From positions 21,483,806 to 21,547,805 of the forward strand of contig CM069875.1 of the NCBI GenBank assembly GCA_036172665.1: a stretch of DNA of 64,000 nt, in the 5' to 3' direction. Below are positions 3,589 through 53,155 of the stretch, piece after piece. Below the pieces are notes generated by a model, which was given only the letters and a program-made list of their open reading frames with translations, made no database searches and had not been told where the DNA came from. Position 1 is the stretch's first letter. Every line of letters begins with the position of its first letter. Made by a program: the position numbers and the translations under genes. The DNA comes from Prosopocoilus inquinatus. Lineage: Eukaryota > Arthropoda > Insecta > Coleoptera > Lucanidae.

Positions 3589-6222
3589 TCATTGAGATGC
3601 CTGGCTTTTAGCCCGACGATGATCATAATTCACCAACCTCTGACCAACTAAATACTTATCATTCTTAATGTGCTCATAAAGTTTTTTAAACTGTCTTATT
3701 TGCAAAGTTATAACGACAACAGCAACACCGACGAGAAGCAGGAACGGATATATTCTTCGAGCGATAAAATTTCTCGTTTGAACGTTACTAATGAATAAGG
3801 GTACAATAGAATATGCGGTTACATATGGGATCGCTAATGCAAGGCCGAAGCTTATTATAACAGGAGCAGCAAGTTCCTTGAAAATAAACATTAAATGCAT
3901 CTCGCGTATTCCATCTCTATACGCTCTCTCAATAGCTGCTCTTAAAAACCAATCAGGTCCCATCATAGTAACAGCACAAGCTATTTTCGTGTACAAAACA
4001 CCTAGTGCCCAATCTTGCCATATAAAAAGCACAGGAGTTTGATGAATTGGAACTCTGAGAGGTACGATTATAACTAACTCCAAAAGTAGACCGAATAATA
4101 ATGGAATTACACCTAATAAGATTGTGCTTGCAAGAATCGTTTTGGCACCAAGAATACACCATTGCTTTAGACGTGCTAACATCGCAGCACGTCCCTGCGG
4201 TAGCCAACTTAATAACAAAGCAATCGCTCGTGCAGCAAGCCAACATAAGTAAGTCCCACAAGCTGCGGTGTATAATTCATGAACTTTAATGCCAGTTTGG
4301 GCCGCTGTAGTAATCTGTGGACTGGGAGGAGGAGCTCCTACAAGCCAAAGAGCCATCACTCGACGTCCTAACCACACAGGCAAAGTAAGTGCAATTAAGC
4401 TAGAAACAACTAAAGAAACACAGACACCTAGTAAAAGAATGATCAGACGTAGAATGAAAAAAGACGGTCTTTCATACGGTTGGAAACCCGTAGGGCCTTC
4501 TCGCATTAACAAAGCCTGATGCGCAGCCCCAAGTCCTCCGTTCGGTTCTGGGGCAGGTTGTGCTTGTTGACCTTCATTAGTTTGATTGCCATCTCCATCT
4601 CCAAGCAAATACGAGTGCATGTCCAACAACCACGCAATTATCCTACACCAAGATCGGACTAAACCCTTCAGCCACGTTCTAGTATGACTTTGCTCAAGTA
4701 AAGCAGGCAAAATCACCTGCAGAAGCAGCAATTCCAAAGATAATTCATTCACTTGAGCTTCGCTATTTAAAGTAACTGTGTAAGGAAGAAAACTAGGTAG
4801 TATAAAGCGCAAAATCCGTATGGGCAGCCACAACATCAATAACACGGCACTTCCAAATATAATTGCTGATAATAACAACCGTCTGATGTGTCTCAAAATA
4901 GGCAAATGTATCATTTCCTGAATGGGGCTGAAATCTGGGTCGTTTAAATTCCTCAAAAACCATAGGACTCCAGGACGTAAAATCTCACGTAATAACAACA
5001 CAAATGACGCAAAATAATACACATAAACCATTCCTACTAACCAATGTATGAAGATTGAAGTGCCAGGGGCTAAGCGAAAGCTATTTTCACGGTCTTTGAG
5101 GGTGGCATCGAACATTGCAAGTGAACAAATATCTAACCACCATCCACACACTAAAGGTAAAATGCCTATTTCTACCACTGAAAGCATAGATACCTTCACA
5201 ACAACATAACACAATCCTAGTACACGACGGGCTTTTGATAATCCAAATAGGGCTGCAATACGATGCAGAACAATCAGCAAAAAACCGACTAAACAATATC
5301 CCAAGAGTGTGGTAAGTAAACCCTCAAAATGACAAGCAGCTGCATACTCGCGCATATTGATAATAGATAAAAATATAAGTCCCATGTGATAGGGGCAGAA
5401 GGCAAATATAAAAATAAAAAGTGTGTTAAGTGATACTACCCAAAACACATGCTCCAGAAACGCTAGTGAACCATCAAGACCTAGAAGTCTTTCCCAAGTA
5501 ACTTCTTCTGCTGCACGGTCCCATTCCATTGGTATCCAATTATTTTCATCGTTGGCGTTATTTTCACCGTCCTCCTGAGGTTCTGGAACGTTCTCTGGTT
5601 GTGGTTCGGCGACGATGTTCTGATTTTCTGCATTTTCGTCTTGTTCAGGAATGTTGTTACCTGCAGGTTCTTGTACAGGTGCTATGTTATCACGTTCGAG
5701 CCAATCTGGACCTCCTCCATGCAAAACTTGTTCTCGCAGCCAAACTAACCCAATGAACGTAAACAACGTACATGTAACCACGAAGCAGCCGTGAAATATA
5801 TCAGATGCAAGATTTTCCGTTGATAGAATATCCGTTATGATTGTGTCTATGCTGCCAGAAAACACAATGCGATAAATTCGGCAAGCTGTTAAGGGAACCA
5901 CACCGAGCCAAGCAATCGCAACCAAAGTATAATGAAGCCAATATTTTACAGCAGTTGCTATTGATGACAATAGTCCTCCTGCTAAGTCCCTTAAAGGTAA
6001 ACGTCTTGGCATGTCTGGAGAGTAGATTGGAGTGAAAGAGAAACGGTGTCCGCATAGTTCGCAATACTCTTTGCGTGAGTAACGCATCCACTGTACCAGA
6101 CATTCTTGGTGAATAAACTTGATAGTTCCTGTGCAGATGCAGGGATGAAACAGAGGGCGATCCGGAACTTCTTCAGAGCGGCAGACTCTGCAGATGTTCT
6201 CTGTGCATTCAGTGTCCGTCAT
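3589..6222 (-). CDS. MARCHF6: MARCHF6/TEB4/Doa10 ER-membrane E3 ubiquitin ligase
   Basis: 877 residues in a single uninterrupted frame, close to the roughly 910 of the human protein. The N-terminal RING-CH finger is visible as C11-x2-C14, C28, C30, H38, C41, C54, C57 (C4HC3). It is followed by about 14 hydrophobic membrane segments, an acidic Glu/Asn/Pro-rich loop near residues 190-245, and a Gln/Pro/Gly-rich loop near residues 560-590. The C-terminus carries KYLVGQRLVNYDHRR, matching the conserved C-terminal element that Doa10/MARCHF6 proteins need for substrate degradation. Known role: ubiquitinates misfolded and short-lived proteins and sterol-pathway enzymes in ER-associated degradation. 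I chose the start at 6222 because the finger begins just after it, and the frame extending to 6267 crosses a good splice acceptor (6238-6239) that would put those 15 residues in an intron. A coding region without introns is notable for this gene. Confidence 0.95.
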   Translation of the reverse strand: MTDTECTENICRVCRSEEVPDRPLFHPCICTGTIKFIHQECLVQWMRYSRKEYCELCGHRFSFTPIYSPDMPRRLPLRDLAGGLLSSIATAVKYWLHYTLVAIAWLGVVPLTACRIYRIVFSGSIDTIITDILSTENLASDIFHGCFVVTCTLFTFIGLVWLREQVLHGGGPDWLERDNIAPVQEPAGNNIPEQDENAENQNIVAEPQPENVPEPQEDGENNANDENNWIPMEWDRAAEEVTWERLLGLDGSLAFLEHVFWVVSLNTLFIFIFAFCPYHMGLIFLSIINMREYAAACHFEGLLTTLLGYCLVGFLLIVLHRIAALFGLSKARRVLGLCYVVVKVSMLSVVEIGILPLVCGWWLDICSLAMFDATLKDRENSFRLAPGTSIFIHWLVGMVYVYYFASFVLLLREILRPGVLWFLRNLNDPDFSPIQEMIHLPILRHIRRLLLSAIIFGSAVLLMLWLPIRILRFILPSFLPYTVTLNSEAQVNELSLELLLLQVILPALLEQSHTRTWLKGLVRSWCRIIAWLLDMHSYLLGDGDGNQTNEGQQAQPAPEPNGGLGAAHQALLMREGPTGFQPYERPSFFILRLIILLLGVCVSLVVSSLIALTLPVWLGRRVMALWLVGAPPPSPQITTAAQTGIKVHELYTAACGTYLCWLAARAIALLLSWLPQGRAAMLARLKQWCILGAKTILASTILLGVIPLLFGLLLELVIIVPLRVPIHQTPVLFIWQDWALGVLYTKIACAVTMMGPDWFLRAAIERAYRDGIREMHLMFIFKELAAPVIISFGLALAIPYVTAYSIVPLFISNVQTRNFIARRIYPFLLLVGVAVVVITLQIRQFKKLYEHIKNDKYLVGQRLVNYDHRRAKSQASQ

Positions 6223-6237
6223 TTTCGGTTTTATTAT

Positions 6238-6434
6238 CTGAAAGTAAAAGGACGTGTATGAAATCAAATGAAAACAAATAGGAATAAGGTCATAATATTT
6301 AGTATCTACAAATTTTAAATTGCAGCCTGCTGTCCTGTGACCATTATAATTGGTAAACAGACAAACAAATCAGCAAGTAGGTAAACAAATACAAAATGAA
6401 TTCATGAAATAAAAATCAAAATGTGTTTGTTTAC
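6238..6434 (-). other. Probable 5'UTR intron of MARCHF6
   Basis: On the minus strand a CAG|GTAAAC donor ends an exon at 6435, and a pyrimidine-rich CTTTCAG acceptor lies 16 bp upstream of the start codon. The sites and spacing fit a short untranslated-leader intron of 197 bp. Inferred from splice signals only. Confidence 0.45.
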
Positions 6435-6825: not shown

Positions 6826-7083
6826 GAACGACTCGAGCTACGTCTCTGCTGACGAAGCCCCAAGCAGGGCTGAAACAGCTGTACAGAGGCTGCTCGAGGT
6901 TTTCACTGCAATCAAAAACGATTTGCACATTTTTTTTTTAAACTTTCATTATGCTTTGACAGCAAGCATGGCCGCCTTGCATGGGGGACTTATTAGGAGC
7001 AAATCTGCTTCAATTTGTCTATCCTATTCATCACTCTTACATCGCATTTGCGAATAAATTGGACAAGTCGTTTTTGTTTGCAG
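6826..7083 (+). mobile_element. Hammerhead-ribozyme repeat, copy 1 (circularly permuted monomer)
   Basis: About 260 bp homologous to the elements at 22394-22860 and 52881-53143. Here the order is ribozyme, then a unique segment containing CATGGCCGCCTTGCATGGGG (6967-6986), then the segment around 7028-7075 that in the other copies lies just upstream of the ribozyme. The copy therefore starts at the ribozyme and stops just before where the next ribozyme would begin. That is what one unit of a tandem array, or a reverse transcript of a circular RNA, would look like. No target-site duplication was found. Short reading frames across it are not convincing. Confidence 0.7.
6832..6898 (+). ncRNA. Type I hammerhead ribozyme, copy 1
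   Basis: Stem I outer helix CTCGAG 6832-6837 with 6893-6898; inner helix GTCTCTG 6842-6848 with CAGAGGC 6884-6890 (one G-U pair). Core C3-A9 is CTGACGA 6849-6855 (position 7 is free in the consensus). Stem II AGCCC 6856-6860 with GGGCT 6867-6871, loop CAAGCA. GAA at 6872-6874. Stem III is the palindrome ACAGCTGT 6875-6882. The predicted cut follows A6883, giving a GUA triplet, allowed by the NUH rule. Stem III is very short, as in retroelement hammerheads that work best as dimers. Fold made by hand; self-cleavage not tested. Confidence 0.85.
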
Positions 7084-22118: not shown

Positions 22119-22575
22119 TAATCGTTAAAACATGAAACAAAATCATGAGTAATTAAAGTACATTAGCAAAATAGGTATGTCAAATAGCTATTTATAACAC
22201 AAGTGTCTTCTAAGGAAAATAAGTAACGAAAGTAATGTTTAGACAGGAGAGCTTGCTCGAGTGGGCTAATTTTTCTTGAATGACTTATTTGCTGTAAAGG
22301 CACGAGTGTAATACATAGTTTTATCCAACACCTGTGTATTATGAAGTCATAATAATGCCGATTTTTAATAGCAGTTTAACTATAATTTCATAAACATATA
22401 AAATAGCGACATCTTACTATCGCTTTTTGACTTAACATTGCAGTACAATAGACAAATTGAAGCGGGATTTGCTCCTAATGAGTCCCCCATGCAAGGCGGC
22501 CATGCTTGCTGTCAAAGCATAATGAAAGATTTTAGAAAAATTTTGTGCAAATCGTTCTTGATTGCAGTGAGAACC

Positions 22576-22640
22576 TCGAGGAGCCTCTGGACAGCTGTTT
22601 CAGCCCTGCTTGGGGCTTCTTCAGCAGAAACGTAGCTCGA
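22576..22640 (-). ncRNA. Type I hammerhead ribozyme, copy 2 left arm
   Basis: Mirror image of the right-arm ribozyme. Minus-strand core CTGAAGA, stem II AGCCC/GGGCT with loop CAAGCA, GAAA, palindromic stem III ACAGCTGT, GUC cleavage triplet with the cut between 22590 and 22589, stem I GTTTCTG/CAGAGGC (two G-U pairs) and outer TCGAG/CTCGA helix. Confidence 0.85.
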
Positions 22641-22754
22641 CATTCCCACTGCAGACCAAAAACGACTTGCCCAATTTATTCGCAAATGTTCATCATTCTT
22701 ATATCGCATTTGCGAATAAATTGGGCAAGTCGTTTTTGGTCTGCAGTGGGAATG

Positions 22755-22819
22755 TCGAGCTACGTTTCTGCTGAAGAAGCCCCAAGCAGGGCTGAAACAG
22801 CTGTCCAGAGGCTGCTCGA
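22755..22819 (+). ncRNA. Type I hammerhead ribozyme, copy 2 right arm
   Basis: Outer helix TCGAG 22755-22759 with CTCGA 22815-22819; stem I GTTTCTG 22764-22770 with CAGAGGC 22806-22812; core CTGAAGA 22771-22777; stem II AGCCC 22778-22782 with GGGCT 22789-22793; GAAA 22794-22797; stem III ACAGCTGT 22797-22804; cleavage predicted after C22805 in a canonical GUC triplet. A transcript through both arms would favour a long hairpin over two active ribozymes. Confidence 0.88.
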
Positions 22820-23485
22820 GGTTCTCACTGCAATCAAGAACGATTTCCACAAAATTTTTCTATAATTTCATAATTCAATAAACGTATATAAAAAAGTATA
22901 TTCAAAATTAGCATTATTATGACTTCATAATAAACAGGTGTTGGATAAATTAATTTACAGTGATATTATTTTATTATGCAACATAGTCCTAAGTTGCTGT
23001 TACATCAAGGCATGGCAATCATAGGCAACTAATTCAAACAATTTGAACACTTTGAAATAAAACTTTCCATATAAATTTAAGATTAACTCACGTTTCATCC
23101 ATTTTTAAACGGATACTGAGAGCAAAAAAACTTACTTTATTAAATTGCACCCGCACGCAGCTCAAGAGATAAAATAAACGTCTACTTAGGCATAATAAAT
23201 AATACACTGACTGGTTCATTTAAATAATAATACACTGATCCGTCCATTTTGACGGCACTTTAAAGTTTCCTTCTTATTTAAATCTTCGTAGCTCCATCAC
23301 ACTCCACGATGTGATACTTAATACCTACAGTAATTATTGAATAATAAGATGGACCAGTCAGAAACTTTACAAATAAATATTATTAAGTTAAGTAAATTTA
23401 CTTAATTTCTCGTAGGCTTCACGGTAATATCTGTCACATGAGACAGTCATCTTGACAGATTGAGAGTAAACATGTGTAAACAACT

Positions 23486-26480: not shown

Positions 26481-26490
26481 TAAGACTCAT

Positions 26491-26651
26491 GCTGGGTTTC
26501 CACACCTCTGGCACACGGCATCCGGCTATCGGACTCCTCTTCGTGATTGGTTGATTTAAAATTTCTGAATATTTCAACGTTCAGAAATTTTAAATCAATC
26601 AATCACGAAGAGGATGTCGGATGCCTTATGCCGCAGGTGTGAAAACTCAGC
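26491..26651. repeat. Palindromic MITE
   Basis: TTCCACACCTC...GCATCCGG is mirrored by ATGCC...GCAGGTGTGAAAAC, with a near-perfect inner pair GAAATTTTAAATCAA / TTGATTTAAAATTTC around 26550-26598. Confidence 0.75.
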
Positions 26652-26729
26652 AATCTGAATTTTGAACGTTTGAAATAGAATCACATCGGCTATCACTAGG
26701 TTAAACATTATGTAACCAAATAGAATAGC

Positions 26730-51381: not shown

Positions 51382-51453
51382 ATATATATAGATATACCTA
51401 TATACCTATATACATATATTTGTACCTTATGAGGAGAGTCTTTAATAACACCT

Positions 51454-52878
51454 GTGCCGAAAGTTAAGCAACCTAAAGGATATATCGACCTTCGCCCAAT
51501 TAGCATTTTACCAAAGCTTTCTAAATTATTTGAGAAAATCATAGCTAAGCAATTGCATTATCATCTATCAACTATGAATATACTTCTTGTGTATCAGTTC
51601 GGCTTTCGGCCTGGATTCAGTTGTACTAGTGCGTTATTAGATGTTACTGATCATATATTTAAGGCACTCGATAATAATTGTGTAACGATATTAATTGCTG
51701 TCGATTATTCAAAAGCTTTCGATACTTTGAATCATGAAATTTTGATATCCTTGCTTAACTACATAGGGCTGGCGAAAGATGCAGTGGAACTACTCCGTAG
51801 TTATATCTTAAATCGTAAACAACGTGTAGATAAAATTTCTGCGGAAGGACCGGTAAATTCTGACGTGCCTCAAGGCTCGATTTTAAGTCTAATACTATAC
51901 GTCATTTATGCCAGCTGTTTGCTTGACGCTCTTCAATATTGTAAGTATCATTTATATGCTGACGATACACTCATATATTATTATTTCCCTTATGAACATT
52001 TAAACGAAGCTTTAACTAAAATAAACGCGAATCTTCAAAATTTGCGAGAAGACATCGGAATCACATTTTTAAAAATAAATCCGTCATATCTAATATTATT
52101 GTTATCAGAAAAAAAAATGTAAATCAAGATCTGAATATAAAAATTGGAGGTTTTTGATGACGAATGCAGACGATTTGCATTGCCCGAGACCTTATAAGTC
52201 GTTGAATGAATGTATATATAATATAAAATAAATTTAGTTACAAGATTCCTTAAAAATAATTTTAATATAATAATTACGGTTTGAATAACCTTAAGTAAAA
52301 CCTCAGGTCATCCGCTCCTTGCTGTTCACGTGTCTTATATTCTCCAAAAAGCTTATGGAATATTAAGGAGACTTTTCTAGCAGACATATACTGAATAACA
52401 AAGTTAAACTTTTACTACGTGACTCATTAATTTTATCCTTTTGGCAGTATACCACTCATGCTTAAAAAACTTAGATGCTAATATAATTCAGCGTTTACAG
52501 AACTCGTGTTTGCGGTTTACTTACGGAATAAGAAAATTTCAGAGAATATTTCACACATTGGAATGGGACAACTAGTTGAATATGTCACAGAGAAGATCTT
52601 TGCATTCAGCGTGCTTTTATTATAAAACTGTAAGATTCAATACACCGGCATATCTATGCTTAAGAATAAAATTTAGAACTGATGTTCATAATATTAATAT
52701 CAGACGCAAAAATCTAATAGGTGTTCTTAAACATAATTCTGAGCTTTTTAAAAAATCAATTTCGTACAATAATGGTCACTGTTTGAATACTATATTATTT
52801 GATTGGACATCAGTCTCATTAAGGTCGTTTAAATATCAATTCAGGAGGTTTCTGCTTGGCGAAACGACGTACTAATTA
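51454..52878 (+). pseudogene. LINE (Jockey/CR1-like) reverse transcriptase and C-terminal region
   Basis: The 222-codon open segment from 51454 contains RT blocks: LRPISILPKLSKLFEKII, QFGFRPGFSCTSALLDVTDH, AVDYSKAFDTLNHEIL, DVPQGSILSLILYVIYASCL and catalytic YADDTLIYY. After a stop at 52122 the family's C-terminal region continues in other frames (QKAYGILRRLF near 52350; QRLQNSCLRFTYGIRKF near 52492-52542; then an open stretch 52576-52878 ending FLLGETTY-stop). Upstream endonuclease and ORF1 are absent, so it is 5'-truncated, the usual LINE outcome. The same family as 27005-28465. Ribozyme element copy 3 is inserted at its stop codon. Confidence 0.9.
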
Positions 52879-52880
52879 TA

Positions 52881-53143
52881 TTTTAGAAAAATTTTGTGCA
52901 AATCGTTTTTGATTGCAGTGAAAACCTCGAGCAGCCTCTGGACAGCTGTTTCAGCTCTGCTTGGAGCTTCTTCAGCAGAGACGTAGCTCGACATTTCCAC
53001 TCTAAACAAAAACGACTTGTCCAATTTATTCGCAATTGCGATGTAAGAGTGATGAACAGATAAAATAGCGACATCTTACGATCGCTTTTTGACCTTTGTC
53101 AGGTCAAAAAGCGATCGTAAGATGTCGCTATTTTATCTGTTCA
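52881..53143 (-). mobile_element. Hammerhead-ribozyme repeat, copy 3, with exact target-site duplication
   Basis: 263 bp bracketed by a perfect 12-bp direct repeat GTACTAATTATA (52869-52880 and 53144-53155). Sense (minus) order: a perfect terminal hairpin, 43-bp stem with 5-nt loop (53053-53095 / 53101-53143), reaching exactly to the duplication; then the conserved region with the hammerhead; then an AAAATTTTTCTAAAA end. It lacks the B segment found in copies 1 and 2. It encodes nothing convincing. The duplication length argues for LINE- or Penelope-type reverse transcription rather than a cut-and-paste transposase. Confidence 0.85.
52926..52991 (-). ncRNA. Type I hammerhead ribozyme, copy 3
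   Basis: Minus strand: outer helix CTCGA/TCGAG (52987-52991 with 52926-52930), stem I GTCTCTG 52982-52976 with CAGAGGC 52940-52934, core CTGAAGA 52975-52969, stem II AGCTC 52968-52964 with GAGCT 52957-52953, GAAA, stem III ACAGCTGT 52949-52942, GUC triplet, cut predicted between 52941 and 52940. Compared with the other copies stem II has changed both partners of one pair (C-G to U-A), so pairing is kept. Confidence 0.9.
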
Positions 53144-53155
53144 GTACTAATTATA

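Follow-up and report, generated by a model that had tools for sequence, protein, structure and literature searches.

Retrozyme-like insertions with hammerhead motifs and paired inverted arms in the genome of Prosopocoilus inquinatus

A stretch of 64,000 nucleotides from the genome of the beetle Prosopocoilus inquinatus (the window; C7:21483806-21547805 of a 650-Mb, 173-contig assembly, which was also the genome searched) holds a repeat family in which an initial annotation, made from the letters alone, drew four intact hammerhead self-cleaving ribozymes, proposing a retrozyme/SINE-like element processed by its own ribozyme. This locus raises the question of what kind of element carries these motifs and how its copies come to be written into the chromosome. 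We found that the four hammerheads sit in three insertions of one 312-bp retrozyme-like element (Table 1), and that most of the copies examined pair two arms head-to-head, with a different fixed end on each, a feature that the annotation had missed.

Hammerhead motifs and insertions in the window

A script run over the window located the core CTGANGA...GAAA inside all four of the claimed spans and recovered the remainder of the drawing, namely a stem II of 5 bp with the loop CAAGCA and, after GAAA, the palindromic CAGCTG/ACAGCTGT as stem III in all four hammerheads, with the cleavage triplet GUC in three and GUA in copy A. In stem I, an internal loop separates 7 bp from an outer helix. The core CUGANGA/GAA, the pair A15.1-U16.1, an NUH triplet and three stems with stem I open are all present, as in a type I hammerhead. 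A structural descriptor made of stems I, II and III plus the core gave 4 matches per window strand and 0 in 200 dinucleotide-shuffled windows, and since two stem II lengths fit, we read the 4+4 matches as four loci each counted twice. Three more loose-core matches (32479, 55488 and 49960) lack family sequence and are not counted by the descriptor.

The word intact thus holds for the core and the stems; the Rfam scores lie below gathering, which is a library cut-off and not part of the hammerhead structure, and activity is a prediction. The covariance-model comparison proposed in the annotation gave no match at gathering score anywhere in the window, and the scan of the whole window at E<=10 returned no hammerhead. 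Among the single-copy scans, which covered A, C and D and not B, the best score was that of copy C (201 bases scanned; Hammerhead_1, 23.8 bits where 34 are required for gathering, E=0.0008); copy D matched only HH9, below gathering (17.6 bits, gathering 52, E=0.056), and copy A had no match at E<=1. Matches to miRNA-precursor models were rejected, being below their gathering scores and on long hairpins such as the inverted arms. Another long hairpin, at 26489-26653, is likewise matched by several miRNA models below gathering and resembles a separate inverted repeat. The pair 10.1-11.1 after the core, usually G-C in hammerheads, is A-U in all four window copies. Support from covariation is thin: among the four copies stem II has one double change (C-G to U-A in copy D), equalled in 108 of 500 shuffles, the extended helix also has one, and across 128 genomic copies stem II has 5 non-pairing cells against 3 changed pairing cells, just one of them a double change.

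Table 1. The element and its flanks in the window. Positions are those of the window; u positions are counted from the cleavage site in the reference unit, one natural 312-bp unit from locus L030.
Feature	Span	Strand	Remarks
Type I hammerhead of A	6832..6898	+	core 6849-6875; GUA; H17 predicted at 6883, with predicted cleavage after it
Copy A	6833..7083	+	about one unit, circularly permuted relative to the other copies, without about 49 nt (u147-195); row wA
Left target site duplication of B/C	22380..22393	.	CTATAATTTCATAA; exact 14-bp match to 22860-22873
Head-to-head insertion B/C	22395..22859	.	arm B inverted, arm C direct; 14-bp repeat on both flanks
Arm B	22395..22688	-	reaches farther than arm C, to about u196-200 (site 2); row L001
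Type I hammerhead of arm B	22576..22640	-	core 22598-22624; GUC; H17 predicted at 22590, with predicted cleavage after it
Arm C	22689..22859	+	ends at site 1, 54 nt past the predicted cleavage site
Type I hammerhead of arm C	22755..22819	+	core 22771-22797; GUC; H17 predicted at 22805, with predicted cleavage after it
Right target site duplication of B/C	22860..22873	.	exact 14-bp match to 22380-22393
Low-side target site duplication of D	52869..52880	.	GTACTAATTATA; 12 bp
Copy D, head-to-head insertion	52881..53143	.	long minus arm with hammerhead and plus arm of about 47 nt; row wD
Type I hammerhead of D	52926..52991	-	core 52949-52975; GUC; H17 predicted at 52941, with predicted cleavage after it
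High-side target site duplication of D	53144..53155	.	12 bp

The sequence surrounding the hammerhead folds as a rod, about 45 bp long, that carries the hammerhead at the tip. Folded as circles, copy A and arm B, neither of them a full 312-nt unit, lie about 5 SD below shuffled energies, and 0 of 100 shuffles reach either. By nearest-neighbour energies, which exclude tertiary contacts, the core CUG of the monomer pairs with the CAG of stem III, 4.4-4.9 kcal/mol below the best fold with an open core; in dimer folding both cores are open in 4 of 4 cases, and the dimers of C and D each form a double hammerhead held together by 8 base pairs of stem III. The models predict a hammerhead active as a dimer, an activity published for axolotl relatives (PMC7229834, in the part of the text compared), and we infer self-processing of the element by its own ribozyme.

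The span 22394-22860 is a single insertion and not two, which the annotation had missed, with the same 14 bp on both flanks. Its arms B and C are identical at 151 of 154 aligned positions and about 90% identical to copy D, at whose arm junction there is a short hairpin loop. A target duplication was looked for in the flanks of copy A and not found. The boundaries of one copy are spanned by another, copy A being permuted, so the unit closes on itself. The joined flanks of the three insertions, as empty sites, have no second copy in the window.

Around the B/C insertion, 22320-22404 and 22865-22949 form 85-nt inverted repeats, 78% complementary. We considered these as the ends of the element and rejected them, since the 14-bp duplication suggests that an older element was hit; the inverted repeat 22320-22949 is probably an older palindromic (MITE-like) element with the retrozyme inserted in its middle. 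Two other neighbours were recognised in the window. At 3589-6369 (-) lies a MARCHF6 E3 ligase in one long open reading frame (926 aa stop to stop), for which the best named among the 120 listed of 1704 matches are from beetles: Tribolium madens at 78%, Popillia japonica at 85% over 92%, and Trypoxylus dichotomus at 89% over 63%. At 51433-52122 (+), about 760 bp from copy D, lies a reverse transcriptase fragment (RVT_1, E=4.4e-25), LINE-like as judged by eye.

A 312-bp unit repeated across the genome

The beetle genome carries thousands of copies of this small mobile element built on the hammerhead motif. A 35-place motif searched genome-wide gave 7,199 forward and 7,242 reverse matches (14,441 together) and 0 with the reversed-pattern control, while exact hammerhead or unit patterns had 0 matches in a viral contig collection and a genome contig collection. 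The unit has a GC content of 0.429 (43%), and its longest ATG frame, sought in three tandem units, is 96 aa. Tandem units at 312-bp steps occur elsewhere in the genome, outside the window, with ten hammerheads in a row in L030.

Metazoan retrozymes are recognised by a GC content below 50%, target duplications longer than 4 bp and tandem direct units of about 150-450 bp, and all three are found here. In the parts of PMC7229834 and PMC7761336 compared, metazoan non-LTR retrozymes further resemble the beetle element in their type I hammerhead, a unit within about 170-400 nt, tandem multimers, a self-paired circle (here a predicted fold) and a weak stem III suited to dimers. The ribozyme motif, the unit and the tandem arrays support placing the element within the retrozyme kind. 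Of the proposed name, the sequence bears out the retrozyme half as far as it can (type I motif, 312-bp unit, multimers, target duplications, and strong self-pairing of two copies folded as circles), and the SINE-like half applies only loosely: as a test for a SINE head, a Pol III promoter of tRNA, 5S or 7SL origin, the window was found to hold no tRNA gene, and no 5S or 7SL appeared among the Rfam matches. Another insect repeat with a hammerhead is pDo500 of Dolichopoda cave crickets, described as satellite DNA in the part of PMC2837043 compared; the likeness is one of description and not of insertion ends.

In a set of 128 genomic copies, which includes eight loci picked for an intact hammerhead, the share of cells that differ from the reference copy is 0.36% at core positions and 1.9% outside the hammerhead, and the core is changed in 5 of the 128. 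Some insertions lie in duplicated DNA: in the pairs L014/L023 and L018/L038 the same insertion and flanks occur at two genomic places, 99.8% identical over 2.6 kb, which may reflect segmental duplication or unmerged haplotypes. L046 and L047 are 98% identical over a shared stretch of 432 bp, within which lies an old diverged unit.

Ends and orientation of the insertions

The 312-bp unit served as reference for mapping 41 fetched loci together with two stretches of the window. The 44 mapped clusters were reduced to 37 complete distinct insertions by dropping four clusters cut by a locus edge and two duplicates (L023 of L014, L038 of L018) and by merging two L030 rows, since the 312 bp that separate them contain a hammerhead of that array. 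Each drop and the merge were decided on by reading the rows. Copy A and clusters shorter than 100 nt (one of them in L034, also with unlike ends) were left out of the ends table, and L008 and L041 repeat L006. End classes were set at u48-76 (site 1) and u186-212 (site 2), and the narrower ranges u52-68 and u188-199 are those of the 25 rows with both edges fixed by a duplication of at least 10 bp. Anatomy, ends, orientation, duplications and arm similarity can be read directly in the copies examined.

Among the 37 insertions, found with a palindromic query and hence biased towards palindromes, 33 have inverted arms in head-to-head arrangement, each arm made of one or more units. One outer end falls at site 1 (u52-68) and the other at site 2 (u188-199) in 29 of these 33, pairs of the same site (1/1 or 2/2) occur in 0 of 33, and the remaining four (L013, L020, L021 and L028) have one end off-site. 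Were ends independent at even odds, 29 mixed pairs out of 29 would have a chance of 2^-29, a figure that serves as a guide and not a test given the palindromic query. Four insertions are of single orientation (L016, L019, the first cluster of L039, and L040); in L040 both ends lie in the site 2 range, but one of them is the start of the plus copy and not an outward end. The two sites are about 138 nt apart and lie near the two feet of the rod, site 1 just past the 3' foot and site 2 just before the 5' foot.

Target duplications of at least 10 bp flank 25 of the 30 rows with unlike ends (two of the 25 being duplicates). They range from 10 to 17 bp, measure 12 bp in 15 of the 25, and A or T predominates in their first eight bases. 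The other five rows (L007, L017, L022, L029 and L035) have a duplication of at most 9 bp or none.

The head-to-head arrangement is also seen in a list that is neutral as to orientation, the first 100 genome motif matches, chosen for an intact hammerhead. Within 1 kb its neighbours are minus-plus (head-to-head) in 18 cases, plus-minus (tail-to-tail) in 0 and on the same strand in 4, the last spaced by 311, 312 or 624 bp; widening the range to 5 kb leaves the minus-plus count at 18 and raises plus-minus to 3. Eight further orientation-neutral loci taken in genome order (L042-L049), again chosen for an intact hammerhead and with ends scored without a duplication check, gave five clean two-site examples (L042, L044, L045, L048 and L049), one with one end off-site (L046) and two with one arm only (L043 and L047).

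Opposite arms of one locus diverge by 1.0% on average and tandem neighbours by 0.7%, against 2.8% (median 2.0%) between the first copies of different loci; the arm comparison includes the duplicate pair L014/L023. In 27 of 27 loci the divergence within the locus is below its mean divergence from other loci. Given this low divergence, a single source RNA for both arms of an insertion is probable; conversion between the arms of palindromes could likewise keep them alike, and likeness alone is no proof of one template. The arms of one insertion can differ in their number of units, as in L030 with 10 hammerheads in one arm and 1 in the other. Most inner junctions join unlike unit positions, and 29 of 37 have an overlap of -2 to 10 nt with a median of 2, computed without the eight whose overlap is -3 or less or above 10 and with both L014 and L023 counted. 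Position u214, at the 5' foot of the rod, recurs as inner junction in eight loci (L001, L004, L005, L006, L009, L013, L022 and L026) and is perhaps a reverse transcriptase stop.

A possible route of insertion and its alternatives

Inverted arms with unlike ends, the architecture of Penelope-type inserts, are found in 29 of the 37 complete distinct insertions, most with a target duplication, and suggest that the element is copied in from both sides of a chromosomal cut, giving a clue to the enzyme that spreads such elements. Taken as a whole, we think it reasonably probable that this is an element of metazoan retrozyme type, inserted by two-strand target-primed copying of its RNA from two internal starts, with an enzyme that is most likely Penelope-like. 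Tandem templates would be transcribed, and the palindromic stem III would pair two hammerheads as a dimer, by which the RNA may be cut into 312-nt monomers that would then be closed into circles. At an AT-rich target the two DNA strands would receive cuts staggered by about 12 bp. Each 3' end so freed would prime reverse transcription within the retrozyme RNA, the one at site 1, immediately beyond the 3' foot of the rod, and the other at site 2, immediately ahead of the 5' foot. Both copies would run along circular or multimeric RNA, sometimes round it many times, and the joining of their inner ends would leave a head-to-head insert with a target duplication.

In the parts of the sources compared, Penelope-like elements are named a strong candidate for moving animal retrozymes (PMC7229834), and the sequence of animal retrozymes is said to hold no motif telling which machinery moves them (PMC7761336). 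The purified Anolis Penelope protein cuts and extends both target strands in vitro, and it starts internally at two sites that bound a "tail" of 30-40 nt (PMC11167929, part of the text); in the beetle the two starts and the use of both strands would be read from the insertion ends. Rotifer Penelope inserts often have inverted pLTRs, mostly head-to-head, with an optional tail on one and duplications of 8-10 bp (PMC3846280, part of the text). The beetle insertions are thus like Penelope-like elements, as described in the compared parts of PMC11167929 and PMC3846280, in having inverted arms mostly head-to-head, a tail on one, duplications and AT-rich targets. By our own count on the RNA printed in PMC11167929, of which part was compared, 82-89 nt separate the hammerhead cut from the main Anolis start downstream of it. 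As arithmetic and not data, the 54-60 nt between cut and site 1 would agree with a start that precedes the Anolis start by one tail-length. Hammerhead mutants left insertion in vitro unchanged (PMC11167929, same part), so the ribozyme need not take part in priming.

Several observations stand against the route proposed here. The Rfam scores are below gathering and the monomer fold closes the core; the spacing of about 138 nt between starts differs from the 30-40 nt of the Penelope tail, the match being close in kind; five of the 30 rows with unlike ends lack a 10-bp duplication; and the four single-orientation and four off-site insertions, together with copy A, L043, L046 and L047, fit it poorly.

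A LINE-type reverse transcriptase could instead mobilise the element in trans, the inverted arms then being ordinary twin priming. Twin priming uses both target strands, and it normally splits one RNA into two non-repeating parts. A reverse transcriptase fragment that looks LINE-like is indeed present in the window, but in the beetle insertions both arms can repeat the same stretch, a poly-A tail is absent at the ends of C and D, and no repeat common to the element and the fragment was found in the window, and we judge this reading unlikely.

That the unit is instead a terminal-repeat (pLTR) fragment of a Penelope-like element, and not an independent retrozyme, we hold to be quite unlikely. 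Such a fragment would have the same insert architecture, and Penelope pLTRs bear type I hammerheads (PMC7761336 and PMC11167929, in the parts compared). These hammerheads are however minimal, without helix III or loop contacts (PMC7761336, part of the text), whereas the beetle hammerhead is canonical: in its stem III, 2 bp capped by a tetraloop can form, and its stem I has an internal loop. Penelope-like elements also encode a reverse transcriptase and an endonuclease, unlike the beetle unit, in which no ATG frame above 96 aa was found over three tandem units; arm B and copy D have no BLAST match to the printed Anolis Penelope template; and closed 312-bp tandem units exist.

For rotifer Penelope it was proposed that the first cDNA folds back and copies itself, yielding the inverted arm by self-priming, and an antisense template was put forward (PMC3846280, part of the text). 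The same route here, from cDNA or antisense RNA, would be compatible with the hairpin loop at the junction of copy D, but a copied arm should not outreach its template arm. In the 29 clean insertions the ends lie about 138 nt apart, and the arms may also differ in unit number, as in L030. Neither arm stops at the point where its partner stops, which counts against self-priming, and we consider this route very improbable for these insertions. Lastly, we give scarcely any credence to the reading in which the hammerhead is a dead fossil within a satellite or foldback DNA repeat propagated by DNA recombination: tandem arrays and palindromes do exist, some insertions lie in duplicated DNA, the 10.1-11.1 pair is A-U and ribozyme activity is a prediction, but dispersed inserts have 10-17 bp duplications and fixed ends, and the core has fewer substitutions than the sequence outside the hammerhead.

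The head-to-head insertion with two fixed ends differs from what is described for metazoan retrozymes, being unmentioned in the parts of PMC7229834 and PMC7761336 compared. Open-access literature, searched by titles and abstract openings with supplements excluded, gave no report of a head-to-head retrozyme, and in the same literature no paper joining retrozymes with Coleoptera was found. The texts compared do not describe this architecture for retrozymes.

On the two-strand reading, the insertion ends are a physical record of the priming step and offer a direct, copy-rich test of what moves animal retrozymes. They also bear on how Penelope itself inserts, where a self-priming proposal (PMC3846280) stands beside two-strand extension in vitro (PMC11167929), both as given in the parts compared. 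We put forward, with confidence evenly divided for and against, a two-site rule for circular ribozyme RNA: two start sites at the feet of the rod, one for each cut target strand, would make the typical insertion a head-to-head rolling-circle pair with one end of each kind, and this would be a Penelope-type signature. If the rule is true, retrozymes would be parasites of Penelope-type enzymes, and the inverted arms and optional tail of Penelope could be accounted for without self-priming.
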